Notes under the pieces: generated by a model
What the model saw: only the letters and a program-made list of their open reading frames with translations
What the model was told of the DNA's origin: nothing
Databases searched by the model: none
Source of the DNA: Thermomicrobiales bacterium
GTDB taxonomy: Bacteria; Chloroflexota; Chloroflexia; Thermomicrobiales; UBA6265
Length of the DNA: 34,139 nucleotides
Assembly: GCA_020849415.1 (NCBI GenBank)
Contig: JADLGF010000191.1
Coordinates: forward strand, 1 to 34,139
Direction of reading: 5' to 3'
Shown here: one piece after another, positions 5,695 through 20,132 of the stretch
Layout of the letters: each line of letters starts with the position of its first letter
How positions within the stretch are numbered: the first letter of the stretch is position 1
Made by a program: the position numbers and the translations under genes

Positions 5695-8349
5695 CTATCC
5701 CGGCCCAGGCTGGGCAATACCCTGGGCGATCGCGCTCGCTAACGCGCCCGTACGGGTGGTAGCGCCCAGTTTCTGTATCAGCCGTGCCACGTGACCTTCA
5801 ACGGTACGGACGCTGATGAAAAGTTCATCAGCTATCTCACGATCGCGTAGCCCCAGCATCAGCAGGTCGAGTACCTCGCGTTCACGCGGAGAGAGTGCAG
5901 TCGGAGTGGCTATCCCATCACGATCTGATGCCTGAGGATCACTGGCCGCGACCGCATCGAGCGGCGGCATGGCAAATCCACGGGTGTATAACGTGTCGAA
6001 CGCGTCCTTCCCCAAAGCACGTGAAAGTGTCCGAACATAGAGATCTCTTTGCGAGGCGGTGCCGAGCATGAGTGGCACACCAAGCGTCGCCGACATGCCT
6101 TCGGAAGCACCGAGGAGCAGCGCTGCCTGCTCCAGATCATTGCGCTCGAAGGAGATGGTTGATGCTACGCCGAGCCATTCAGCGAGCACATCCTGGCTCA
6201 GGCCCCGGCTCCGTTCCCACCGCGCCAGACTCTCGCGCTTCGCCCAATTGGCTTGATCGGCGGACCCCACCCGTGAACTGGCCATGGCATAGGCGTTCAG
6301 GATCACGCTCTCATTGAACATCACGCCCGGCTTACGATGCGCCTCAAGTGCTCGGTCCAGCGCAGCCTTCGATTCTGGCAGGCGGTCCGTGTGGAGATAG
6401 AGCACGCCCAGGAAATAGAGCGCACCGCACTCGCCCGTTACGTCACCGAGCGCGGTGTATCGTTCCAATGCGTCGAGCAAAAGTACCTGCGCAGCTTCGT
6501 ATCGTCCAAGGCTCTTGGCCGTTCCTCCGAGCGCATAAATCGCATGCGCTTCGGCGAGTCGGTCTCCCGCCTGACGGGCGAGCGCGAGCGCGGCGGAGTT
6601 GTGCTCCCATGCGATGGTGAACTGCCCTTGCCGCCGCCGCTTGCGTCCAATCGTCATATGGGCTTTGAGCGCCACGGCAACCGGGACACCATTGTCGATC
6701 GCCAAACCGCGAGCCAGCCACGATACCGCCTCGTCGTGGGTGCCGCGTTGTTCCCAATACGAGTGCATCGCCACGGCGAGCAGCAACATGCGATGACTGT
6801 CGCCGACGGATTCGAGCCACCCCAGCGCGGCACGAACGTTGTCTTGCTCGGCTTCCACCGCCATCAATCGCCAGAGGTTTTCAGAGGTCACCTCCGGGGT
6901 ATATCCCCAACCGTCGAATGATCCCCGGACGAGATCGAGCGTCCAACTCGCATGGCGTTCATGGGCGATCTGGTCGTCGCCACTCGCTACGGCTTGTTCC
7001 TGACCGTACGCACGGATAGTCTCAAGCATTTCAAATCTGTACTGTTGGTCGTCTCGATCAACCCGACGCACAAGGCTCTTGTCGATCAGGGACGCGATGA
7101 TATCGAGGAACAGCTCCAGTCTATTGTCGGCACTGGCGACGTCCTGTTCATCGTCCGCCGAGTCGCCGAACGCGACATACGCCCCGGCGTCTTCGGTGAA
7201 TCCTCCGGTGAAAACAGCCAGCCGGCGAGCAACCTGCTGTTCCAGAGGGTTTAGCAGGTCGAAGCTCCAGGCGATGGCATCGCGCATGGTGCGGTGGCGA
7301 GGTGGAGCATCGCGTGGGCCGGTGGTCAGGACATTGAGCTGATGATCAAGCCGATCACGCAGCACCGTGAGCGGCATGGAAGGGACCCGCGCCGCCGCAA
7401 GCTCGATCGCCAGCGGTAACCCGTCAACCAGTCGGCAGATATCCACTACGACCGGGGCCGTACTCTCGTTGAGCCTGAAATCGGGCACCATCGCTTCAGC
7501 GCGATCAACGAAGAGACGCACAGCCGGCGATTGTTCGGCCAATGCCAGTGTCGTCGGTTGCCCGGATTCAGGGAGTTCCAGTCGAGGAACAGGCAAGGCA
7601 TGTTCGGCCGCCAGCCGCAGCCGCGTGCGACTGGTTACCAGCATCGAGACGCCAGGGCAGGCGTCCAGCAAGCTCGCTAATCCCGGCCCGGCTTCGACCA
7701 CCTGCTCGAAATTGTCGAGGACCAGTAAACCACGCCGATCCGACCAGAACGTTTGTATGGCATCGTGCGATGACTGACCGTCGAGAACCTGGACCCCCAG
7801 ACTGGTAGCGATCGCATCGGAAACCAATGTTGCGTCGGTTACGCCCGCGAGCGGAACGAACCAGACGCCGTCATCGAACTCTTCGCTCATGGCGGCGGCA
7901 ATGCTGATCGCAAGGCGCGTCTTGCCAACGCCGCCGGGGCCCGTCAGCGTCACGAGGCGCACACCCGGTCGTCGCAACAAAGCTGTTCCGATGGAAACCT
8001 CATCTTCTCGGCTGATGAGTGAGGTGGATGGACGCGGCAGATGGCCCTTGCTCGCCTTCGCCTTCCCGCCTGAAGCCGGATTTCCCTCAGTGACGGTTGC
8101 CTCGGCGCTCTTTTCCTGGGTGCGAGGGTACATTTTCCTGGCCCGTTGCTGGTGCCAGGCTTCGAGTTGTGGCTGAGCTATAGCAAAAACACCATGCTGT
8201 TTTTCAGCGACGAGCGCGCCACTTGAAATGGCACGACGAATAGTTCGCTCGTTCACCCCGACGTGTGCGGCCGCTTCCTGGGCGGTCATGGTGGCCGGCA
8301 GCGCCTCCTGTCCGGTGTCCGGTGTTCGCTGAGAGCCGGAAGACGTCAT
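5695..8349 (-). CDS. LuxR-family STAND transcriptional regulator with an N-terminal excisionase-like HTH
   Basis: An 884-aa regulator. Residues about 21-70 form an excisionase/MerR-like HTH ([20 protein letters not shown]). A linker follows, then an NB-ARC-type ATPase with Walker A GPGGVGKT at 137-144 and Walker [10 protein letters not shown] near residue 205. Next is a long helical, TPR-like region with many AL/EA repeats. The last ~65 residues are a LuxR HTH ([15 protein letters not shown] ... [15 protein letters not shown]). STAND proteins of this type (MalT-like) switch on with ATP and a ligand. I chose ATG 8349 because GAGG lies seven bases upstream; an ATG at 8448 would add 33 residues of unlikely sequence. 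It is divergent from the exported-protein operon and could control it, but no operator is identified. Confidence 0.85.
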
Positions 8350-8654
8350 GCCATGACCTCGTTCATCGGTTTGCAGTCTGAGGTGCCCATTCCCGATCAC
8401 CACAATCTCGCTCACTTCGAGCGCACATATGGATAAGCATGGGCACACGGATTCCTGAGTCAGGGTTGGTCACATGGCGGACGAACCCGGCCGGATCTGG
8501 CCTCTCGATTGTACGGTGTCCGGTTCGGTTTCGGGACAGGAAACAGGTAATTTCCCGCTCGTTAATCCGGGTTCCGCACTCGTAGTCTCTCCATGGGTCC
8601 CACGCCAGGTTGGCACGGATAAAGCGAGCGGATGCAGATCAAGGAGATGTGAAG
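8350..8654. promoter_or_regulatory. Divergent intergenic region between the LuxR regulator and the 8655 gene
   Basis: About 305 bases must carry the promoters of the leftward regulator and of the rightward gene run. I see no convincing -35/-10 pair. A GGTGTCCGG word occurs near 8313 and again near 8513, but it is too short and GC-rich to call an operator. Confidence 0.3.
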
Positions 8655-9098: not shown

Positions 9099-9968
9099 AT
9101 GGATACGACACGTTTCGACGCCGTCTCGCGCTACCTTGCCCAGACGTTGAATCGACGCCAGGTCATGGCCCAGGGTGGGGCAGTCGCCGGTGCGGCCGCC
9201 GTCGCCGGCATCGGCCTGACCTCAGTTGCCGCCAAAGCCGCGCAATCGACGCAAGATGCCGACCAGGCGGGCGCGACCCTCACATCGTCCACCCTCTTCG
9301 TTCAGTCGTTCATGTCCGGCAGTGTCACCCCGGCGGCAGAAGCGCACAACTTTACCGTCAACCTCGAACGCGGACTCGGACAGACGATCTTCTTTTCCGA
9401 TCGACCGCAGCGTCAGGTCGGGACGCTGAAGACTGAGGAGTTCCTGGCGAAGCTGGGCTTCATGCCGGACAACCCGCCGAATGCCGCGATCGTCGCGGAG
9501 CAGAGTGATGGATCGACCGTGTTCGCGGTGGTCGAGCTGTTCAACCCGACCTACGACGCGGACGAGGCGAATCTCACGTACGAGGTGACGGTCCTCGACG
9601 ACTGGCAGCGGATGGACATGGAGTTCGAGCACGATCCGATGGATCTGCAGGGAGAGGCAGCCACATTCGGCGCCGCCCACCTCCTGATCGATGGCATCCT
9701 CGATTGCCCGGACGCCTCGCTCCAGTGCCTGAACGGTGACGCCGTCGTCGGCACGATCGATGACCACGATGGCTACTGCTACAGCTGGGGGGATATCGCC
9801 TGCGTGCCGTGCCAGCCGTGGGGCGTTGGGCCGTCTTACTTCGTTGACCTCTGCAACGAGCGCTTCGAGGCGTGCGAAGGTGACTGCGGCCTCTGGAACT
9901 ACTGCAGCCTGGATGCACCGCTCGGCAATACGCTCTGCCGGGACTCGGACGCCCGCAGCAACTTCTAG
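9099..9968 (+). CDS. Tat-exported FSDRPxR-domain cysteine-rich protein, paralog P1
   Basis: A 289-aa protein with AGGAGG eight bases before its ATG. Residues 1-48 are a Tat leader: an FDAVSRYLAQTLNRRQVM stretch, a hydrophobic Ala/Gly-rich core and an AKAA-type cleavage region. The next domain holds LFVQSF, FSDRPQR at 99-105, DNPPNAAI, FAVVELFNPTYD and LTYEV. It matches a widespread but, to my knowledge, uncharacterised exported domain. The C-terminal ~90 residues hold about ten cysteines, with the family signatures HDGYCYSW and CVPCQPW. P1 is the most diverged of the six paralogs and stands alone ahead of the redox genes. Only 23 bases separate it from the next gene. Its biochemical role is unknown. 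Confidence 0.85.
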   Translation: MDTTRFDAVSRYLAQTLNRRQVMAQGGAVAGAAAVAGIGLTSVAAKAAQSTQDADQAGATLTSSTLFVQSFMSGSVTPAAEAHNFTVNLERGLGQTIFFSDRPQRQVGTLKTEEFLAKLGFMPDNPPNAAIVAEQSDGSTVFAVVELFNPTYDADEANLTYEVTVLDDWQRMDMEFEHDPMDLQGEAATFGAAHLLIDGILDCPDASLQCLNGDAVVGTIDDHDGYCYSWGDIACVPCQPWGVGPSYFVDLCNERFEACEGDCGLWNYCSLDAPLGNTLCRDSDARSNF

Positions 9969-9991
9969 AGATCGCGGAAGGATCGAGCAGC

Positions 9992-11083
9992 GTGTTCACG
10001 TTCATCGGCGCCGCTGGCGTCACGCTTGTCCTGACGATGTGTGTCTGGATGATCGTCCAATCTCGCGACCGCCAGCGCCGCATGAACGAGCGGCTCGACG
10101 ATCTCGCACTGCAATTCGCGTCTAGGCCGACGAACATGGTTCCGTCGGCCCAGGCCGAATCCCGGCCAAATCGGGATTCGGTGCTCGACGCGCTCAAGGG
10201 TGATCGCGCGCCCGGGTTCTCCTTGCCCGACGCTGACGGCACGCCTGTCACCCTCGATGCCCTGCGTGCTCAAGGAAAGCCGGTTGTGCTCTTCTTCACC
10301 GATCCCCGCTGCGGCCCCTGTTTCGACTTGTTGCCGGACATCGGTGGTTGGCAGCGGACCTACAGCGACCACCTCACGCTGGCGCTCGTGAGCTCCGGCG
10401 ATGCCGAAACGAACGCGGCGATGGTCCGGGGGTACGGCATTTCGACGGTCTTGCGGCAGCACGATATGGAGGTGGTGCTTGGCTACAACCTCGCCCAGGC
10501 TCCCGCCGCTGTCCTGATTTCTCCCGAGGGATTCGTGATGGCGGGGCCACGATACGGCGTGCAGGCTGCCCGATCCTTGATGGCCGAAGCCCTGGGAGTG
10601 GCGATGCCGCCCACCCCGATTCGCTCAGTCCAGGAAGTGCGTCGAGGCGAACTGGCCCCGTCGATTCGTCTGCCTGACCTGTCCGGCGCGATCGTTGATC
10701 TCGACTCCTATCGCGGATGGCCGACGCTGCTGCTCTTCTGGAATCCGGGATGCAGCTTCTGCCAGGCGTTACTCTCGGATGTCCTGGCGTACGAGCTACT
10801 TGACCGGCGTCCGAATATCCTCGTGATTTCCCGAGGCCCAATTGGACTCAATACAGCATTGGGCTTTGTCTCTCCCGTTGTGATCGACGAGGGGAAGGTG
10901 CTCGGCAAGGCGTTTGGCGCCACCGGCACTCCCGCCGCACTTGTCCTCGACGCCAGTGGACGAGTAGCCACGCCAGTCGCGCGGGGCCTCGATCAGGTCC
11001 GTATGTTGCTTGCGTCCACCGCGACGGCCATGTTGGCGAAGTCGCCCACTTCCGACGCCGATTCGGAATCAGCCAGTGCCTGA
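9992..11083 (+). CDS. Membrane-anchored protein with two TlpA/MauD-like thioredoxin domains
   Basis: A 363-aa protein from GTG 9992, with GGAAGGA upstream. Residues 3-23 form one membrane anchor, so both domains face outside. Domain 1 (about 70-205) has APGFSLPDADGTPVTLDAL and the active site CGPC at 107-110. Domain 2 (about 218-345) has APSIRLPDLSGAIVDLDSY and a second pair, CSFC, at 254-257. Both keep the cis-proline context (QAPAAVLI; TGTPAALVL). TlpA/MauD-type proteins reduce or isomerise disulfides in exported proteins, and MauD serves the cysteine-rich methylamine dehydrogenase small subunit. Two active domains in one chain are unusual. Its position next to cysteine-rich P1 suggests that the P proteins are its substrates. 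This last step is inference. Confidence 0.8.
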   Translation: MFTFIGAAGVTLVLTMCVWMIVQSRDRQRRMNERLDDLALQFASRPTNMVPSAQAESRPNRDSVLDALKGDRAPGFSLPDADGTPVTLDALRAQGKPVVLFFTDPRCGPCFDLLPDIGGWQRTYSDHLTLALVSSGDAETNAAMVRGYGISTVLRQHDMEVVLGYNLAQAPAAVLISPEGFVMAGPRYGVQAARSLMAEALGVAMPPTPIRSVQEVRRGELAPSIRLPDLSGAIVDLDSYRGWPTLLLFWNPGCSFCQALLSDVLAYELLDRRPNILVISRGPIGLNTALGFVSPVVIDEGKVLGKAFGATGTPAALVLDASGRVATPVARGLDQVRMLLASTATAMLAKSPTSDADSESASA

Positions 11084-11105
11084 CCTCAGGCTAAGGAGAG
11101 TATCC

Positions 11106-12164
11106 ATGACACCATTGAACCGATCAATCAGTCGCCGGGGTTTGGTTGGAGGTACTGCGGCGAGTGCGGCATCGTTCGCGATCGCTGCCCAGTCACCGGT
11201 GGCGCTCGCCCAGACACCGGTCGCCTCGTCAACAGCATCTGTTCCCGAATGGGATGAGATCGACCAGCAACTGCAGGCAGTTTCGCCGTTGGTCGCACTC
11301 ACCGTCGCCGAACTCGCCGGCGATGAGATTGGCACGATCCACGAGTTGAATCCCGAGCTCGTGCTGCCCATTGGATCGAGCTTCAAGCTCTGGATCCTTG
11401 GTGCCCTGGCGATGTCAGTCGCGTCCGGTGAAAGCGCCTGGAATGCGCCGATGCAGATCGAAGAGGCGCACAGGAGCGTGCCGGGTGGCGATTTTCGCTA
11501 CCTCCCGGCAGGCACTACCTTCACCACCCGTTACTTCGCCGAGCGCATGATCCAGAAGAGCGACAACACTGCCACCGATCACACGATGTTCCACGTCGGG
11601 CGCGAGAGCGTCGAAGCTGCCATGGCGGCCATGGGTCACCATGATCCATCGCTGAATGTTCCGATGCTTTCGACGCGGGAACTCTCGATGCTCAAGTTCG
11701 CGTCGCCAACGGAGCAGGTGGACGCCTTCGTGGCCGCCGATGTGCCGGAACGACGCCGGATCCTGGAGGAGGAGATCGACATCCTCCCGTTCTCTGCGCT
11801 CTCTGACCTTGACCAGACCAGGCCGTTGGAGATCGATCGCATCGAGTGGTTCGCCAAGCGCGGCGATCTCGTCAAGACCATGGCCTGGCTGCATGGCACC
11901 GCAGGGAATGACGAGCTGCTGCCGGTGCGAGAAATCCTCACCCTGGAAACACCGATTCCGTTCGACGGGGAGACCTGGAACTATGTCGGGTACAAGGGTG
12001 GTTCGGAGATGGGTCTGCTCAGCACCTCCTGGCTGCTCGATCGGGCCGATGGCCGCACGTTTGTGTACACCATCGGCTTTGTCGATCCCGACGCGGCCAT
12101 CGATATGAACGCGGCGGTTGCGGTCATGGCGAACGGTCGTGATCGCCTGGCCCTCGTTCCCTGA
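11106..12164 (+). CDS. Tat-exported class A beta-lactamase-like serine hydrolase
   Basis: A 352-aa protein with AAGGAGA eight bases before ATG 11106. The leader has SRRGLVGG and ends near ALAQ (about residue 36). The active-site motifs are in the expected order: SSFK at 91-94 (SxxK), SDN at 152-154, and YKGG near residue 298 in place of KTG. No clear omega-loop ExxLN is visible, so true beta-lactamase activity is doubtful; a peptidase or esterase role is as likely. It is the third gene of the operon, 22 bases after the double-thioredoxin gene. Its link to the P proteins is unknown; it could process or be co-exported with them. Confidence 0.8.
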   Translation: MTPLNRSISRRGLVGGTAASAASFAIAAQSPVALAQTPVASSTASVPEWDEIDQQLQAVSPLVALTVAELAGDEIGTIHELNPELVLPIGSSFKLWILGALAMSVASGESAWNAPMQIEEAHRSVPGGDFRYLPAGTTFTTRYFAERMIQKSDNTATDHTMFHVGRESVEAAMAAMGHHDPSLNVPMLSTRELSMLKFASPTEQVDAFVAADVPERRRILEEEIDILPFSALSDLDQTRPLEIDRIEWFAKRGDLVKTMAWLHGTAGNDELLPVREILTLETPIPFDGETWNYVGYKGGSEMGLLSTSWLLDRADGRTFVYTIGFVDPDAAIDMNAAVAVMANGRDRLALVP

Positions 12165-12221
12165 TCCCGGCTACGCCCACCTTCAGACCGGCTTTCGTCA
12201 CCACAAAAGGACCACACCACC

Positions 12222-13637
12222 ATGGCCCAAGCGAATTCTCGGCCGATGCCGACCGCCCAGAGTCCCAATAGCGAGGCTGGACCGTTCTCCCGCCGCACCG
12301 CCCTTCGCCAAGGCGCGGCCGGCGTCGCGACCGCGTCCCTCGTTGCGGCCGGGAGCGCCACCATTTGGTCGGGCGATGCGCGTGCTCAGAGCAGCGCACC
12401 CCTCGCAACACCGGTCCCGGCGGGTGGTCCGACGCTGGACCAGATCGCATTCGCCTCCAGCATGGATGGCCAGTTCATCCGTGCGCTGGACACCATTCCC
12501 TACCGTGGAGCGGACGTAGGTGAGTCGTTCATTACTGCCCGCCGAATTCCGGATGGTGACACGGAGGCGTGGTACCGGGAGTGGTGGCAGTTGGCGGAGC
12601 GCACCGAGGGCTATGCGAACGAGGCGCTCGCCGCCGGGAATACCGTGAGTGCGCGAGATGCCTTTCTGAGGGCCTGCACGTACTATCGGCAGGCAAGTCT
12701 GTATCTGTTCAAGCCACCCTTGCAGCAAGGCCTCGTCGATTCGTTCGCCAATCAGCGTCGCGTCTTTGTGCAGGCGATGGCCCTGTTCGACCGGCCAGGC
12801 GAGGCCATTGACATCCCCTACGAAGGCACAACGCTGCCGGGATATCTGTTTCTGCCCGCCAGGCAAGACGAGCCGTTCCCTCTGCTCATCATCACTGGTG
12901 GCTACGACGGCACCCGCGAAGAGTCTTATTTCGCGGGCGGCGCGGCGGCGATCGAACGCGGCTGGGCTTGCCTTGTTTTCGATGGGCCCGGCCAGGGCGA
13001 GGCGCTCGTCGAGCAGAACCTCTTTTTCCGCCCCGATTGGGAGAACGTAGTGACGCCGGTTGTTGACGCGGCCCTGCAGCGACCGGAAATCGACCCTACC
13101 CGCATTGCGCTGATGGGACGCAGCTGGGGCGGGTATCTGGCGCCTCGCGCCGCGACGGCCGAACACCGGATCGGCGCCGTGATTGCCGATGCTGCCCAAT
13201 ATGACCCCGCTGCACGAGCGCCCATGCTGCTGCCCGAAGATTTGCGTCCACTGCTCGCATCCGGGGACGATGACACGACGCTCAGTGCCTGGCTCGAGAG
13301 TGCGATGGCGTCCTCACCCGAAATCGCCTTCTCGATGAACCGGGGCATGCTGACCCACGGTTTGGCATCTCCCCTGGAGTACGTGCAGGGCTACGGGCCG
13401 TACACCCTGAACGGCATCGCCGATCAGATTCAGTGCCCGGCCCTCATCATCGAAGGGGAGGCGGACTTCCGTGGAGGCGATGCGAAGCCGCTCTACGACG
13501 CCATCACCTCACCCGGCTCAGCATATCTTCTCTTCTCCAATGCCGATGGAGCAGGGTTGCACGACGAAGCTGGAGCAGCCAGCCTCTTTGCCCTCCGTGT
13601 CTTCAACTGGCTGAATGGCGTGTTCAGTCTTGCCTGA
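12222..13637 (+). CDS. Tat-exported alpha/beta hydrolase (FrsA / pseudooxynicotine-hydrolase-like)
   Basis: A 471-aa protein. The Tat leader has FSRRTALRQGAAG and ends around DARAQ (residue 56). A helical N-terminal cap (about 85-190) precedes the hydrolase core, as in 2,6-dihydroxypseudooxynicotine hydrolase and FrsA-like enzymes. The core shows the GGYDG oxyanion-region turn, FDGPGQGE, the nucleophile elbow GRSWGG (Ser about 301), a GEADFRGGD loop with the likely acid Asp (about 415), and HDEAG with the likely catalytic His (about 447). Substrate unknown; esterase, C-C hydrolase or peptidase are all possible. It lies 57 bases after the beta-lactamase-like gene and 21 bases before the MauE-MauD-like fusion, so co-transcription is likely. 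Confidence 0.82.
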   Translation: MAQANSRPMPTAQSPNSEAGPFSRRTALRQGAAGVATASLVAAGSATIWSGDARAQSSAPLATPVPAGGPTLDQIAFASSMDGQFIRALDTIPYRGADVGESFITARRIPDGDTEAWYREWWQLAERTEGYANEALAAGNTVSARDAFLRACTYYRQASLYLFKPPLQQGLVDSFANQRRVFVQAMALFDRPGEAIDIPYEGTTLPGYLFLPARQDEPFPLLIITGGYDGTREESYFAGGAAAIERGWACLVFDGPGQGEALVEQNLFFRPDWENVVTPVVDAALQRPEIDPTRIALMGRSWGGYLAPRAATAEHRIGAVIADAAQYDPAARAPMLLPEDLRPLLASGDDDTTLSAWLESAMASSPEIAFSMNRGMLTHGLASPLEYVQGYGPYTLNGIADQIQCPALIIEGEADFRGGDAKPLYDAITSPGSAYLLFSNADGAGLHDEAGAASLFALRVFNWLNGVFSLA

Positions 13638-13658
13638 GATATTGCAGGAGGGAGCGAC

Positions 13659-14735
13659 GTGGATGTCCTGATCATTGCGGCGAGTCTGATCCTCTCGGCC
13701 GTGTTTCTCCTGTCTGGCGCGAGCAAGCTGATGGATCGTGCTGGTTCACAGACGGCCGTGCGCGACTTCGGTGTGCCGAGTGTCCTGGTCCCGGCTACCG
13801 CGGTGCTGCTGCCACTGGCGGAGTTGAGTATTGCTTGCGCGCTCATTCCCAATCGCACGGTGGTTTGGGGCGCACGGGCGGCACTGGTGCTGCTGGGCAT
13901 CTTCATCGCTGGCATTGTCCTGAATATGGTGCAGGGCCGACGACCGGATTGCCATTGCTTTGGCCTGCTGCACTCCGAACCGATCGGGTGGCCGACCATC
14001 GCTCGCAATCTGCTCCTCATGCTGCTGGCGCTGATGATTCTCGGTGGCTCGAGCGGTCTCGAAAATCTCCGCGACTCGGTTTTTGGACTCGTTGGGGGTG
14101 GGCAGTCGGCGCCTGAGTCTGTACGGCTCATCACGCTCGTGTTGGCCGGGATGGTCGCGATGGCGACCCTGCACCTGATGCTGGTCATGCAGGAGGAGCG
14201 ATTGCTCAATCGTCGATTGAGCGTGTTGGCCGCTCCCGGTGCGGCGGCGTCTCCTGTCGGTCAAAGTGATCGGGGACGGCGAGCATTGGATGCACTGCCA
14301 GTGGCCCTTGATGTCGGCGCGCGGGCTCCGGACTTCCACTTGCCATGCCTGGCTGGATCAGATGTGTCGCTCGCGGAGAATTTCTCTGCCGGGCAAGCAA
14401 CTTTCCTGATCTTCGTTGACCCAACCTGTGGTCCCTGTTCGCAGCTGTTGCGCGAACTTCCGACGTGGAAGAGCGCCCACCCGCATGGACCTGACCTGCT
14501 GGTTGTGAGCCGGGGTGACGAAGCCGCCAACCGCGCCAAGACCATGGGGATAGCGAACGATCGTGTTGTCCTCCAACACGATCGAGAGGTGTCGTTTGCC
14601 TACGGGATTCAGGGCACACCATCTGCGGTGTTTGTGACTCCCGATGGAACGATCGGGTCGCCGGTCGCTGGAGGCATCGGCGCGGTTCGAGCGCTTCTTG
14701 CAAAGGAGTCAAATGATGAACCCCACTCGATTTGA
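13659..14735 (+). CDS. MauE-MauD-like fusion: membrane redox domain plus thioredoxin domain
   Basis: A 358-aa protein from GTG 13659, with GGAGGGAG just upstream. Residues 1-130 are a MauE/DoxX-type membrane domain of four hydrophobic segments. Its PDCHCFG motif (cysteines at 98 and 100) is the signature redox pair of the MauE family. A fifth hydrophobic segment (about 156-177) leads to a TlpA/MauD-like thioredoxin domain (about 215-350) with APDFHLP, DPTCGPC (CGPC at 257-260) and QGTPSAVFV around the cis-proline. In mau clusters MauE and MauD are separate proteins needed for the disulfide-rich small subunit of methylamine dehydrogenase. No mauA or mauB is seen here. The gene overlaps the start of P2 by 20 bases, pointing to coupled translation. 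Confidence 0.85.
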   Translation: MDVLIIAASLILSAVFLLSGASKLMDRAGSQTAVRDFGVPSVLVPATAVLLPLAELSIACALIPNRTVVWGARAALVLLGIFIAGIVLNMVQGRRPDCHCFGLLHSEPIGWPTIARNLLLMLLALMILGGSSGLENLRDSVFGLVGGGQSAPESVRLITLVLAGMVAMATLHLMLVMQEERLLNRRLSVLAAPGAAASPVGQSDRGRRALDALPVALDVGARAPDFHLPCLAGSDVSLAENFSAGQATFLIFVDPTCGPCSQLLRELPTWKSAHPHGPDLLVVSRGDEAANRAKTMGIANDRVVLQHDREVSFAYGIQGTPSAVFVTPDGTIGSPVAGGIGAVRALLAKESNDEPHSI

Positions 14736-15546
14736 TACCATCACCCGCCTCTTCGCGGACCGCAAACTCACCCGACGGCAATCCCTCGCGGCCGGCGCCG
14801 GGCTCGCAGCCGGTATTGCCGGCTCCAGGCTCGCTTCCGCCCAGGAGGCTTCGCCAGAAGCGCTCCCGATAACGCCGGATGCGGATCACGGGCCAGAAAT
14901 GCTCTTCGTCCAGTCCTTCCATTCCGGCAGCATCGTGCCCAGCGAACGGGCCGAGGGACGCTATACCGTTACCCTGGAGCATGGACTTGGAGAGACCATC
15001 TACTTCTCCGATCGCCCCGACCGCATCGTCGGCTCGACCCCGACGGCCGCGTTTCTCGACGGCCTCGGTTTCCCTGAGGACAACCCGCCCAACGCAGCCA
15101 TCCTGACGCAGAATCCGGACGGCGATGCCACCCTGGCCGTGGTCGAACTCTTCGATCCCGTCTATGACGCGGAGACGGCGACGCTCACCTATGACGTGTC
15201 GGTCCTCGAGCATTGGAAGGACGGCACGGATCTTGCCTTCACCGAGACGCCGGTGGACCTTGGCGCGCTTGGCGACACCTTTGGCACGGCCCACCTCTTC
15301 ATCGATGACTGTGGTGACTGGGAAATCACCTGTTACTCCATCCCCTCCAAGGGCATCAACGGCCATGTCGGAAGCATCCTGACTGACGAACACGATGGAT
15401 TCTGCTACAGCTGGGAAGCCGCTTTTTGCCTCCCCTGCCAGCCGTGGATCGCGGACGGGTACAGCGCCTATCGCTATTGGAACCAACAGTGCAACGAGCG
15501 TTTCCCGGACTGCCTGGGCATATGTCAGGCGAGGAACGTGGTCTGA
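14716..15546 (+). CDS. Tat-exported FSDRPxR-domain cysteine-rich protein, paralog P2
   Basis: A 276-aa protein. Two ATGs lie close together (14713 and 14716); AAAGGAG at 14702-14708 is best spaced for 14716. The start lies inside the end of the MauE-MauD gene. The leader has FDTITRLFADRKLTRRQSL and ends near SAQE (43). The FSDRPDR motif is at 98-103, PPNAAIL at 124-130 and VVELFDPVYD at 142-151. No cysteine occurs before residue 199; then eight occur at 199, 206, 230, 238, 241, 259, 266 and 270, including HDGFCYSW, CLPCQPW and CNERFPDC. This is the reference layout for the family. The even number of cysteines, confined to the C-terminal domain, suggests up to four disulfides. Confidence 0.85.
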   Translation: MNPTRFDTITRLFADRKLTRRQSLAAGAGLAAGIAGSRLASAQEASPEALPITPDADHGPEMLFVQSFHSGSIVPSERAEGRYTVTLEHGLGETIYFSDRPDRIVGSTPTAAFLDGLGFPEDNPPNAAILTQNPDGDATLAVVELFDPVYDAETATLTYDVSVLEHWKDGTDLAFTETPVDLGALGDTFGTAHLFIDDCGDWEITCYSIPSKGINGHVGSILTDEHDGFCYSWEAAFCLPCQPWIADGYSAYRYWNQQCNERFPDCLGICQARNVV

Positions 15547-15577
15547 CGGTGCTGATCTATCGAGCGGAGCAATTCCC

Positions 15578-16408
15578 ATGAACCCAAGTCGACTTGATGC
15601 CATCACCCGCCTCTTCGCGGATCGCAAGCTCTCACGCCGCCAGACGCTCGGCGCCGGCGCCGGGCTCGCCGCCGGCGTTGCCGGCTCCAGGCTCACGGCC
15701 GCCCAGGACGCCTCGCCGGAGGCGCCCCCGATCGTGCCGGACGCCGATCACGGGCCGGAAATGCTCTTCGTCCAGTCGTTCCAGTCCGGGAGCATCGTGC
15801 CCAGCGAGCAGGCCGAGGGACGCTACACCATCACCCTCGATCACGGCCTGGGTGAGACCATCTATTTCTCCGACCGCCCCGATCGTATTGTCGGCTCGAC
15901 TCCGACCGCCGCATTTCTCGATGGCCTCGGCTTTCCTGAAGACAACCCGCCCAACGCAGCCATCCTGACCCAGAATCCGGATGGCGATGCCACCCTGGCC
16001 GTCGTCGAATTGTTCGATCCGGTCTACGACGCGGAGACAGCGACCCTCACCTACGATGTCTCGGTCCTCGAGCACTGGAAGGACGGCACCAGGCTCGCCT
16101 TCACCCAGACACCGGTGGACGTAGCCGCGATAGGCGACACCTTTGGCACGGCCCACCTCTTCATCGATGACTGTCAAGGCTCGGATATCCTCTGCTACTC
16201 CCCCGACCGCACCCTGGGCATCCACGGCCATGTTGGAAGCATCCTGTATTCCGAACACGACGGGTTCTGTTACAGCTGGGGAGCGTGGGAGTGCCTCCCC
16301 TGCCAGCCGTGGATTGCAGACGCGGAGGGTGCCTTCCGCTACTGGAACCAACAGTGCAACGTGCGTTTCCCCGATTGCCTGGAAAACTGTGCGTCCAAAT
16401 ACCTCTGA
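15578..16408 (+). CDS. Tat-exported FSDRPxR-domain cysteine-rich protein, paralog P3
   Basis: A 276-aa protein with GGAG eight bases before ATG 15578, 31 bases after P2. It is the closest relative of P2. From the DADHGPEMLFVQSF segment through VLEHWKDG the two differ at only a handful of residues, and their DNA is also nearly alike. The differences gather in the stretch between the second and third cysteines (CYSPDRTLGIHGHVG here) and in the last ten residues. All eight cysteines are kept, with HDGFCYSW, CLPCQPW and CNVRFPDC. The leader has KLSRRQTLGAG. P3 probably arose by recent tandem duplication. Function unknown; it presumably shares the location and redox maturation of its siblings. Confidence 0.85.
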   Translation: MNPSRLDAITRLFADRKLSRRQTLGAGAGLAAGVAGSRLTAAQDASPEAPPIVPDADHGPEMLFVQSFQSGSIVPSEQAEGRYTITLDHGLGETIYFSDRPDRIVGSTPTAAFLDGLGFPEDNPPNAAILTQNPDGDATLAVVELFDPVYDAETATLTYDVSVLEHWKDGTRLAFTQTPVDVAAIGDTFGTAHLFIDDCQGSDILCYSPDRTLGIHGHVGSILYSEHDGFCYSWGAWECLPCQPWIADAEGAFRYWNQQCNVRFPDCLENCASKYL

Positions 16409-16437
16409 TCGTGCTGATCTGTCCTGAGGAGTACATC

Positions 16438-17259
16438 ATGAACCCCAATATGATCGATACAATCACCCGTCTCTTCGCCGACCGCAAGCTCTCCCGGCGA
16501 CAGACCCTCGCCGCCGGGGCACTTGCCGCCCCGGCTCTCCCTTCTGTCGCCCAGGACGCTACCCCGATCGTACTGGAAGCCACCCCGGTCGCGCCGGATG
16601 CGGATCACGGGCCGGAAATGCTCTTCGTCCAGTCCTTCCAGTCCGGCAGCATCGTGCCCAGCGAGCGTGCCGAAGGACGGTACACCGTCACGCTCGATCA
16701 CGGCCTTGGCGAGACCATCTACTTCTCCGATCGACCCGACCGCCTCGTCGGCTCGACGCCAACGGCCGCCTTCCTCGATGGTCTCGGCTTCCCTGAGGAG
16801 AACCCGCCCAACGCCGCCATCCTGACCCGGAATCCGAACGGCGATAGCAATATGGCCGTTGTGGAACTCTTCGATCCGGTCTACGACGCAGAGACAGCGA
16901 CGCTCACCTATGACATATCGGTCCTTGAGCACTGGGAAGACAGCACCGACCTGGCCTTCACCCAAACGCCAGTGGATGTTGGAACGATCGGCGAAACGTT
17001 TGGCAGCGCCCATCTCTTCATTGATGACTGTGCCGACGAAGATATTACCTGTGTAACCAGCAATTCCGATGGACTCCTCGGCATCATCCCCAACGCCGAC
17101 TTTGATGGTTGGTGTTACAGCTGGTGGCCGGCGGCACGATGCCTTCCCTGCCAGCCGTGGAACAGATCGTTCACCAGCGCCTCAGAGTACTGGACCGGCA
17201 TCTGCCGCGCCCGATTTTGCCCGGAGACGTGGACCTGCTGGGCTGGAACCTTTCGATAG
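16438..17259 (+). CDS. Tat-exported FSDRPxR-domain cysteine-rich protein, paralog P4
   Basis: A 273-aa protein, 29 bases after P3, with GAGGAG before ATG 16438. The leader is shorter in its hydrophobic core (LAAGALAAPALPSVAQ). The FSDRPDR and PPNAAIL segments are the same as in P2/P3. The C-terminal domain keeps eight cysteines but differs at the end: the usual CNxRFxxCxxxC is replaced by CRARFCPETWTC, which shifts the spacing of the last two cysteines. The CYSW and CLPCQPW signatures are intact, with FDGWCYSW replacing HDG. The altered cysteine pattern suggests a changed disulfide map or binding surface. Its operon position argues for co-expression with the other paralogs. Confidence 0.85.
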   Translation: MNPNMIDTITRLFADRKLSRRQTLAAGALAAPALPSVAQDATPIVLEATPVAPDADHGPEMLFVQSFQSGSIVPSERAEGRYTVTLDHGLGETIYFSDRPDRLVGSTPTAAFLDGLGFPEENPPNAAILTRNPNGDSNMAVVELFDPVYDAETATLTYDISVLEHWEDSTDLAFTQTPVDVGTIGETFGSAHLFIDDCADEDITCVTSNSDGLLGIIPNADFDGWCYSWWPAARCLPCQPWNRSFTSASEYWTGICRARFCPETWTCWAGTFR

Positions 17260-17307
17260 CGTGAGTCCGCTTTCAACCGCGACCCTGCAGTACCGAAGGA
17301 GACAACG

Positions 17308-18138
17308 ATGAACCCAACTCGGCTTGATACCATCACCCGCCTCTTCGCCGACCGCAAACTCTCCCGGCGTCAGTCGTTCACTGCCGGCGCCGGGCTCGCC
17401 GTCGGAACACTTGCCGCGCCGGTTCTTGCCGATGCCGCCCAGGAAGCGACCCCAATCGCACCGGACGCGGAGCACGGACCGGAGATGCTCTTCGTCCAAT
17501 CGTTCCAGTCGGGCAGTATCGCGCCCAGCGAACGGGTCGAGGGGCGTTACACCATCACCCTCGATCACGGCCTGGGCGAGACCATCTACTTCTCCGATCG
17601 CCCCGAACGGATCGTCGGCTCGACTCCGACCGCCGCCTTCCTTAATGGTCTCGGTTTCCCCGAGGACAACCCGCCCAACGCCGCCATCCTGACTGAGTCC
17701 GCCACTGGAGAAACGACCCTGGCCGTGGTGGAACTCTTCGACCCGGTCTATGACGCGGAGACGGCGACGCTCACCTATGACGTGTCGGTCCTCGAACACT
17801 GGCAGGACAGCACCGAGCTTGCCTTCACCCAGACGCTGGTGGACGTCAGTGCGATCGGCGACACCTTCGGCACGGCCCACCTCTTCATCGATGATTGCTC
17901 CACCTCAACCATCATGTGTCTCGATCGCCATACCATGCGGCACGTTGCCGGACTGATCGGGGACGATGCCCATGATGGCTGGTGCTACAGCTGGAGCGCC
18001 GCATTTTGTCTCCCCTGCCAACCGTGGCTTGGCGGCGCCGATTTGGCTAGTATCCAGGACTACTGGAATCAGCAGTGCAATGCTACGTACACGGAGTGCA
18101 AGTCCGACTGCTTTGCATACGGGGCAACGAGCGAGTGA
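17308..18138 (+). CDS. Tat-exported FSDRPxR-domain cysteine-rich protein, paralog P5
   Basis: A 276-aa protein with AAGGAGA before ATG 17308, 48 bases after P4. The leader has KLSRRQSFTAG and ends near DAAQ. The central domain is close to P2-P4 (FSDRPER, PPNAAIL, VVELFDPVYD). Between cysteines two and three it carries its own segment, DRHTMRHVAGLIGDDA, then HDGWCYSW and CLPCQPW. The end has CNATYTECKSDC, so the usual Arg-Phe is lost while the cysteine spacing is kept. Eight cysteines in total. As with the others, no enzymatic motif is recognisable. The mature protein should be acidic and extracytoplasmic. Confidence 0.85.
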   Translation: MNPTRLDTITRLFADRKLSRRQSFTAGAGLAVGTLAAPVLADAAQEATPIAPDAEHGPEMLFVQSFQSGSIAPSERVEGRYTITLDHGLGETIYFSDRPERIVGSTPTAAFLNGLGFPEDNPPNAAILTESATGETTLAVVELFDPVYDAETATLTYDVSVLEHWQDSTELAFTQTLVDVSAIGDTFGTAHLFIDDCSTSTIMCLDRHTMRHVAGLIGDDAHDGWCYSWSAAFCLPCQPWLGGADLASIQDYWNQQCNATYTECKSDCFAYGATSE

Positions 18139-18227
18139 ACTGTCGCCCGTGACACCAGCCGTGCAGGCGCCTCTCCCCACGAAATCTCTGTTGACAGCAT
18201 CGCCTGATATCGCATTGGAGGTCCTGA

Positions 18228-19103
18228 ATGGATCCAAACCGCTTTGATTCGATCTCGAAACTGCTCGCGTCTCGTCGCCTCTCCCGGCGGAGGGTGGTAG
18301 CGGAAGCAGCGACAGGAATCGCCGCAGGCGCGGCCGCCGTGGCCGGCCTTCATACGGAAGCTGCGGCGCAGGAGGCGACCCCGGCACCGCACGCCGATCA
18401 CGGTCCCGCCATGCTGTTTGTTCAATCGTTCAATTCCGGGAGCATTGCCCCGATAGCGGGTGAAGAAGGGCGTTACACGGTGACGCTCGACCACGGCCTG
18501 GGCCAGACGGTCTACTTCTCTGACCGGCCCGACCGAATTGTCGGAGCCAGTGCCACAGACAAATTCCTTAACGGATTGGGGTTCACGCCGGACAACCCGC
18601 CCAACGCGGCATTGGTCATCGAATCAGCCTCCGGGACAACGGACCTGGCCGTCGTCGAGTTGTTCACTCCCACGTTTGACCCGTCTGGGCCAACGGTGAC
18701 GTACGAGATGGTAGACCTGCGGCAATGGGAAGAATCGCATGAAACAGGCCTCGCGGAGGTACCAAATGATCTGGGGAATCTGGAGCCCACATTTGGCACA
18801 GCCCACCTGTTCATCGATGACTGTCCAGACTGGGACATCGTTTGCGTGCCGGATGACGGCAGCGGCTACAACCCGGAGACAAAAACTCCCCAGGCCGGAA
18901 TCATTCCAGCGAGTGAACATGACGGCTGGTGCTATGACTGGAACGCGGATACGTGTATGCCATGTGCTCCCTGGTTCGCTGGCAGCGAGGGGTGGAATCT
19001 CGCCCGGATCTACTGGGCGGATCAGTGCAACCGGCGTTTTGCGGTATGTGAAGACGACTGCTTCCCTTGGGGAGTGTGTTTGGGCTGTACTTCCTCGATG
19101 TGA
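18228..19103 (+). CDS. Tat-exported FSDRPxR-domain cysteine-rich protein, paralog P6
   Basis: A 291-aa protein with GGAGG six bases before ATG 18228, 89 bases after P5. It is clearly more diverged than P2-P5: the leader reads FDSISKLLASRRLSRRRVV, and the central domain has FSDRPDR, DNPPNAALVI and VVELFTPTFD. The insertion between cysteines two and three is the longest of the set. The signatures are varied to HDGWCYDW and CMPCAPW. Two extra cysteines near the end (GVCLGC) bring the total to ten, as in P1. So the outer members, P1 and P6, are the older or faster-changing ones. It ends where the decayed duplicate begins. Confidence 0.85.
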   Translation: MDPNRFDSISKLLASRRLSRRRVVAEAATGIAAGAAAVAGLHTEAAAQEATPAPHADHGPAMLFVQSFNSGSIAPIAGEEGRYTVTLDHGLGQTVYFSDRPDRIVGASATDKFLNGLGFTPDNPPNAALVIESASGTTDLAVVELFTPTFDPSGPTVTYEMVDLRQWEESHETGLAEVPNDLGNLEPTFGTAHLFIDDCPDWDIVCVPDDGSGYNPETKTPQAGIIPASEHDGWCYDWNADTCMPCAPWFAGSEGWNLARIYWADQCNRRFAVCEDDCFPWGVCLGCTSSM

Positions 19104-19276: not shown

Positions 19277-19882
19277 GCCTTCGCGGAGTCGGAGTCTTTG
19301 AGACTCATCACGCTGCTCTTGGCAGGGAAGCTTGCCGCGGTGGCCACGCACCTGCTGCTGGTGATGCGAGATGAACGGCAGGTTAATCGACGACTGGAAA
19401 CCTTGGTTGCTTCCGGGGCGGCAGTCTTGCCTGGGCAGCGAGACGATCACGGGCGGCATGGATCGGGCAGCCAGCCAGTGGCTCTGGAAGTCGGGGCTCA
19501 GGCGCCGGACTTCCACTTGCCCACGTTGGCTGGAAGAGAAGTGTCGATGGCAGAGATACGGCCCACCTGGCAATCGGCCGCACTCATCTGCACTGACCCA
19601 ATATGTGACCCCGCACGCAGCTATTGCGCGAACTCCCCGCCTGAGTGGATGCCCACCCGGGTGGGCCCGATCTGCTGGTCGTGAGCCGAGGCGATGAAAC
19701 CGCCAATCGAGCTAAGGCCGTGGGGATAGCCCTGACCGAGTTGTCCGCCAGTACGATCGAGAGGTAGCGTTTGCCTATGGGATTCAGGGCACACCATGGG
19801 CGGTGCTGGTTGCGCCAGACGGCGCGATTGGCTCACCAGTAGCGGTGGGTGTATCGGCGCGGTTCGTACCCTTCTCGCGACA
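19277..19882 (+). pseudogene. Decayed second copy of the MauE-MauD fusion (C-terminal half)
   Basis: The translation matches the 13659 gene from its last membrane segment onward: ESLRLITLLLAGK, HLLLVMRDERQVNRRLE, then GAQAPDFHLPTLAGREVS. At the active site a one-base deletion turns DPTCGPCSQLL into DPICDPARSYC, destroying the CxxC. After the shift, the DNA still matches in other frames: VVSRGDE... around 19680, then FAYGIQGTP around 19770-19795, and GSPVAVG near the end. The four-segment MauE domain with its CxC motif is absent. This is a clear pseudogene and shows that the redox gene has been duplicated along with P-family DNA. Confidence 0.75.
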
Positions 19883-20132
19883 CAACCGCCACCCGACTGA
19901 CATCCAGAGTAACGAGAGCATGCGCGGGGCGCGCCTTGCGACTCACTGGATCTGGGGTGGGCAACCTTTGCGGTTCGAAGCGGTTGTTTATCATAACGTC
20001 AATTGCGAGTTGCTGGCGGCGGATTTCGCTCAGATCTGGATCAAGTACGATGGAGACGAGTTCTCACCATCGACCGAGATGCAGACCGTCATCGCCCAAG
20101 TGTGGGCTTCTGCCCGAATGAATGCGACCCAC

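Follow-up and report, generated by a model that had tools for sequence, protein, structure and literature searches.

What links six exported, cysteine-rich paralogs to the membrane-bound redox proteins of the MauE and TlpA types that are encoded in the same run of genes? MauE is known mainly from the maturation of methylamine dehydrogenase. The locus addressed here is located on contig C191 (34,139 bp, analysed at its full length and hereafter called the window) of a 2.8-Mb Thermomicrobiales MAG (G000) that is 69% complete. We consider it fairly probable that this operon exports a family of disulfide-rich constant-variable proteins and supplies part of the MauE/TlpA machinery for their oxidative folding.

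The ten-gene run and its redox proteins

Genes were called with a simple ORF and GC3 rule. The 10-kb same-strand run of the original prediction is borne out: ten genes occupy positions 9099-19103 of the plus strand, separated by gaps of 22-90 bp and with a single overlap (E/F), and they encode six paralogs, a double TlpA protein, a MauE-TlpA fusion and two exported hydrolases. The prediction had listed the paralogs and the redox pair correctly, and had made no use of the hydrolases, the upstream regulator or the constant/variable pattern described below. The run starts with paralog A (9099..9968), which has a Tat-type signal, a cysteine-free FSDRP domain and a C-terminal domain with 10 cysteines, and continues with gene B (9992..11083), gene C (11106..12164; a Tat-type exported serine hydrolase resembling class A beta-lactamases, Pfam Beta-lactamase2 7.7e-17), gene D (12222..13637; a Tat-type exported alpha/beta hydrolase, S15/FrsA-like by Pfam) and gene E (13659..14735). 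It is completed by paralogs F (14716..15546), G (15578..16408), H (16438..17259) and I (17308..18138), with 8 cysteines each, and J (18228..19103), with 10. The 3' end of gene E contains the ATG of F, which is preceded by AAAGGAG, an arrangement in which translational coupling of E and F is likely. Promoter and terminator scans of the locus gave scores not above those of shuffled sequence.

The double-thioredoxin membrane protein that had been predicted is gene B, in which an N-terminal membrane segment is followed by two TlpA-like domains (CGPC, CSFC; Pfam AhpC-TSA/Thioredoxin_2), and the predicted MauE-MauD-like fusion is gene E, in which a MauE membrane domain (DCHCFG; PF07291, 102.4 bits against a cut-off of 27, 2.9e-29) is joined to one TlpA domain (CGPC; AhpC-TSA, 1.5e-8). 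The MauD equivalog TIGR02661 reached 63 and 33.7 bits, under its cut-off of 188.6, and these proteins are therefore regarded as relatives of TlpA and not as MauD; the best NCBIfam matches of the redox proteins include ResA as well as MauD. A degenerate second MauE-TlpA copy, detected by tblastn with residues 153-358 of gene E (52-71% identity in three frames), lies past paralog J on the same strand (19292..19904), beyond the end previously given for the run. Its MauE half is gone, its TlpA half is spread over three frames, and CGPC has become CDPA.

As anticipated, neither MauA (PF02975) nor MauB (PF06433) was found in this 69% complete genome, and MauA was also missing from the rest of its family (f1); a methylamine dehydrogenase system was rejected on these grounds. 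The locus is similar to methylamine dehydrogenase maturation in that MauE and TlpA/MauD-like domains adjoin an exported protein or domain with many cysteines. It differs in that MauE forms a fusion with TlpA and is accompanied by a double TlpA, MauA and MauB are lacking, and the substrates form an unrelated family (by Pfam) with six members.

The gene order is shared with HKST-UBA75 (G058, locus L007), a member of another genus, with identities to the window of 84% (A), 86% (B), 88% (C), 87% (D) and 73% (E). This conservation, together with dN/dS values of 0.14-0.31 for genes B-E between the two genomes, indicates that the run is not a chance assembly. RR-type signals are present on genes C and D as well, and a relative of gene C adjoins a paralog in another genome (L008, 67% identity). 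A LuxR-type gene (5695..8448, minus strand; NB-ARC/NACHT ATPase, TPR and LuxR HTH by Pfam) is located divergently upstream of the run and, by its position, is likely to regulate it. Relatives of it neighbour paralogs at 6 further loci (192 kb) and occur 4 times in 441 kb of MauE loci and not once in a 400-kb control made up of large contigs of nine genomes. Two paralogs of another genome (G050) are interleaved with beta-lactamase-family and alpha/beta hydrolases and adjoin a LuxR gene. The two exported hydrolases and the LuxR-type regulator would complete the unit.

An exported family with a constant and a variable half

The six paralogs are homologous, with 43-49% identity to paralog A and at most 83% among themselves; the FSDRPxR motif and the C-terminal cysteines are invariant across them. 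Their products have 273-291 aa (about 220 aa in the mature form), and each consists of an RR-containing, hydrophobic Tat-type signal, an N-terminal domain of about 135 aa without cysteine, and the cysteine-rich C-terminal domain, in agreement with the architecture originally described. The Pfam TAT_signal scores of the paralogs are under the cut-off, and export via Tat is predicted from the RR signals; each paralog would leave the cell by this route. No family match was obtained in Pfam, NCBIfam, PHROGs or PDB sequences, and a Foldseek search of the PDB with two AlphaFold models of moderate confidence (pLDDT 66 and 73) returned no relative at E<=0.001. We found no description of the exported FSDRP family in the sources searched, and in this respect it deserves the label "undescribed" that it had been given. 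The label does not hold for the combination of MauE with a cysteine-rich partner in the absence of methylamine dehydrogenase, which was proposed earlier for Streptomyces (PMC7794033).

Members of the family are present in 16 of the 61 genomes of the order, all belonging to f1, and one genome holds 12 matches. Among 400 genomes of the phylum, full-length relatives are confined to f1, and the three distant matches cover mainly the N-terminal domain. This domain is also found without the cysteine-rich domain or redox genes: a single-domain protein (L054 type) has an N-terminal domain homologous to that of the paralogs (E 2e-9 to those of the window) but lacks their cysteine-rich C-terminal domain, and is in turn matched by Rhizobium hypothetical proteins (about 43%). 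On a Rhizobium leguminosarum plasmid, an N-domain relative (L137, 2369-3055) is located two genes from an annotated cysteine-rich repeat protein.

The mature paralogs A, F, G, H, I and J contain 10, 8, 8, 8, 8 and 10 cysteines, the 8-10 originally counted, all of them in the C-terminal domain. Across the family, the N-terminal domain has none and the number in the C-terminal domain is even (8 or 10) in 29 of 29 homologues, which are mutually related and hence not 29 independent trials of evenness; for two of them, which the script left unsplit, the count of the whole mature protein (10) was taken. The number shifts in steps of two despite widely varying C-terminal sequences, which is the pattern that fully paired disulfides give. 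Judged from these sequences, it is highly probable that all 8-10 C-terminal cysteines are paired. The C-terminal types differ by locus: besides the CYSW/CxPC type, there are a knottin-like 8-Cys type and a different 10-Cys type (L038, L051). The knottin-like C-termini are carried on FSDRP N-terminal domains (L047, 4625-5359; L050, 3424-3990), and that of L047 matches Pfam cystine-knot families without significance (E 0.14). One further copy (L039), outside the 29, has a pentapeptide-like repeat and 6 cysteines.

The two halves of the paralogs appear to have evolved differently. Within the window, F, G, H and I have N-domains that are 83-93% identical, whereas their C-domains are 38-65% identical. 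The N-domain of I is closer to that of F in the window (84%) than to that of its G058 counterpart (76%), and in the N-domain tree the three copies of G058 are united in a starred clade (97/98). The reverse applies to the C-domain, where I of the window is 75% identical to I of G058 and 48% to F, a grouping that is starred (98/99). The F and G copies are not cleanly separated, and it is therefore chiefly the I and A pairs that carry the orthology signal. Paralog J of G058 (L007, 18625-19494) has a J-like start, a second N-domain half of the F/G type and one in-frame TAG. We infer that the N-domains are homogenised within a genome by gene conversion, while the C-domains would diverge or be replaced; exchange of C-domains would give a similar pattern. 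Similar N-domains and diverging C-domains are expected if the former are a common platform and the latter carry specificity, which is the division of roles that we envisage.

MauE beside exported cysteine-rich proteins in Thermomicrobiales

MauE genes were located in 61 genomes and their surroundings were read. Genes within two of MauE were screened for a Tat-type signal, a minimum of 8 cysteines and a cysteine content of 2.8% or more; 11 of 154 such neighbours passed this strict filter, compared with none of 422 genes of the control. The Fisher p value is about 4e-7, or 2e-5 without the FSDRP family, with neighbouring genes and related genomes treated as independent. The window locus does not figure in the 11/154, as the simple gene caller chose poor starts there. 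The partners of MauE are unrelated to each other and comprise the FSDRP family, STIG1-like proteins with 74 and 84 cysteines, a 16-Cys family and MauA-like proteins (PF02975). The STIG1-like repeat proteins (L077, 3210-4760, in G005; L089, 2129-4780, in G007) have Tat-type signals and are encoded beside MauE-TlpA fusions. The 16-Cys family is encoded beside MauE; in L075 the two are separated by a TlpA/MauD-like gene. PF02975 occurs in six genomes of one genus, with one to three matches each, at least one of which has MauE no more than a few kb away; MauB exceeded its cut-off in none of the 61 genomes, including all six of these. The loci of this genus are L105 (G022), L098 (G026), L102 (G024), L094 (G023), L100 (G028) and L109 (G027). 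In three of them, the MauA-like gene directly adjoins a gene of about 600 aa with a MauE domain; the N-terminal approximately 400 aa of this product in L105 have no Pfam match.

Outside the window, MauE is present in 4 paralog loci, compared with about 0.08 expected. In the MauE-TlpA tree the paralog-linked copies do not form one clade, and starred branches force at least three changes: the copies of the window and G058 sit together on a long branch, and two from G035 cluster with other genes of the genome that carries them. A common origin of all paralog-linked copies is thereby rejected, and this repeated, phylogenetically separate pairing makes hitch-hiking a harder explanation. Thermomicrobiales also possess core fusions of MauE with two to four TlpA domains (e.g., L058 in the same genome as the window). 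They have the same domains as the redox genes of the run, and genes B and E together equal a four-domain core fusion in domain content. However, the core gene adjoins PPX/CHAD/RsgA-type genes (judged by eye), usually with no cysteine-rich neighbour, and gene E forms a long branch separate from the core fusions. The redox genes of the run are probably local copies of a general MauE-TlpA system that these genomes also have elsewhere and that was recruited repeatedly next to genes for exported cysteine-rich proteins.

Precedents exist outside this order. A survey of Streptomyces RiPPs (decRiPPter) found MauE and MauD encoded next to products that contain 8 or more cysteines, and a role for these proteins outside methylamine metabolism was proposed (PMC7794033). 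Those clusters are similar in that MauE (and MauD) occurs without other mau genes; they differ in that their products are predicted RiPP precursors, compared with Tat-type proteins of about 220 aa in the mature form and with a constant domain here. A RiPP cluster was rejected for the run, given products of 273-291 aa and the lack of a RiPP-modifying enzyme by Pfam/NCBIfam. In the open-access literature searched, we came upon no further study of MauE-TlpA fusions. The idea of pairing MauE with cysteine-rich proteins is thus not new; for its breadth in Thermomicrobiales, the sources searched yielded no earlier account.

The role of the redox proteins

In the mechanism that we favour, the MauE half of gene E would shuttle electrons to or from the outer TlpA domains of E and B, with the quinone pool or a different carrier at the other end, and these TlpA domains would form or reshuffle the disulfides of the paralogs. 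The resulting mature proteins would have a variable, fully disulfide-paired C-terminal domain next to a constant beta domain free of cysteine. As in a MauE-assisted folding module, an exported cysteine-rich substrate is encoded alongside, its cysteines being presumably paired. Both the electron flow and the disulfide role are proposed by analogy with MauE and MauD in methylamine dehydrogenase maturation.

It should be noted that CGPC is a motif typical of reductants, and that the TlpA motifs are mostly CGPC, so that electrons may flow in either direction. The redox pair could instead be a reductase or isomerase (DsbC/DsbD- or ResA-like) that corrects wrong disulfides, with VKOR/DsbA or the core MauE-TlpA as the general oxidase that makes them, a reading that we hold to be unlikely. 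The CGPC motifs, the ResA matches and the presence of MauE in every paralog-bearing genome, usually besides the local gene, are compatible with this reading, but MauE has been linked to disulfide formation in MauA, according to work cited in PMC7794033.

In another reading, the redox pair and the two hydrolases would be functionally unrelated to the tandem secreted family and simply lie beside it. About two-thirds of the paralog loci sampled, many of them on short contigs, have no MauE or TlpA nearby; in G050, which is 96% complete, both paralogs have 8-10 cysteines, sit with hydrolases and have no MauE/TlpA in 20 kb, and the AVDCRST_MAG49 contig (L008) keeps the paralog, the hydrolase and the regulator, with a TlpA remnant as the only trace of the redox genes. 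Against these observations stand the separate repeated pairings in the tree, the excess of MauE over expectation, the general MauE/cysteine-rich pattern and the whole run kept in a second genus, and we regard a lack of any functional link as improbable. The same loci do show that the pairing is neither obligate nor strictly dedicated. Paralogs that occur widely without MauE/TlpA neighbours had been named beforehand as an argument against a dedicated machine, and this was partly what we found, many paralogs having no such gene nearby. A MauE gene, often a core MauE-TlpA fusion, is present in 16 of 16 paralog-bearing genomes; little weight is given to this co-occurrence, as MauE is widespread in any case (p 0.02 within f1). 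These MauE genes elsewhere in the genome could serve the paralogs without redox neighbours.

It is very improbable that the C-terminal domains bind metal (zinc-ribbon or cluster type) with TlpA keeping their thiols reduced for loading: CxPC pairs, a non-significant match of paralog G to the zinc-ribbon-like DUF7479 (E 0.34) and the action of TlpA homologues in metal-centre assembly (TlpA/Sco in that of CuA) would fit, but the cysteine counts vary (8 or 10) and are even without exception, and other MauE partners have 16 to 84 cysteines and include MauA-like proteins of a disulfide-bonded family.

A disulfide-making module for exported cysteine-rich proteins, originally proposed as a dedicated one, is well supported by association: the even counts in 29 of 29 homologues, the 11/154 versus 0/422 neighbours, the repeated recruitment and the orphan MauA-like genes beside MauE all point to it. 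More tentatively, MauE-TlpA might be a general modular platform for oxidative folding in Thermomicrobiales that has been recruited repeatedly to serve distinct families of extracellular cysteine-rich proteins, and the FSDRP family a constant-variable display system in which a gene-converted platform carries diversifying disulfide-rich recognition domains. If true, MauE-TlpA would serve a little-studied lineage as a general disulfide system and might be put to use in the production of cysteine-rich proteins, and the FSDRP family would offer a testable bacterial case of domain diversification, in which N-terminal domains are homogenised and disulfide-rich C-terminal domains are swapped.
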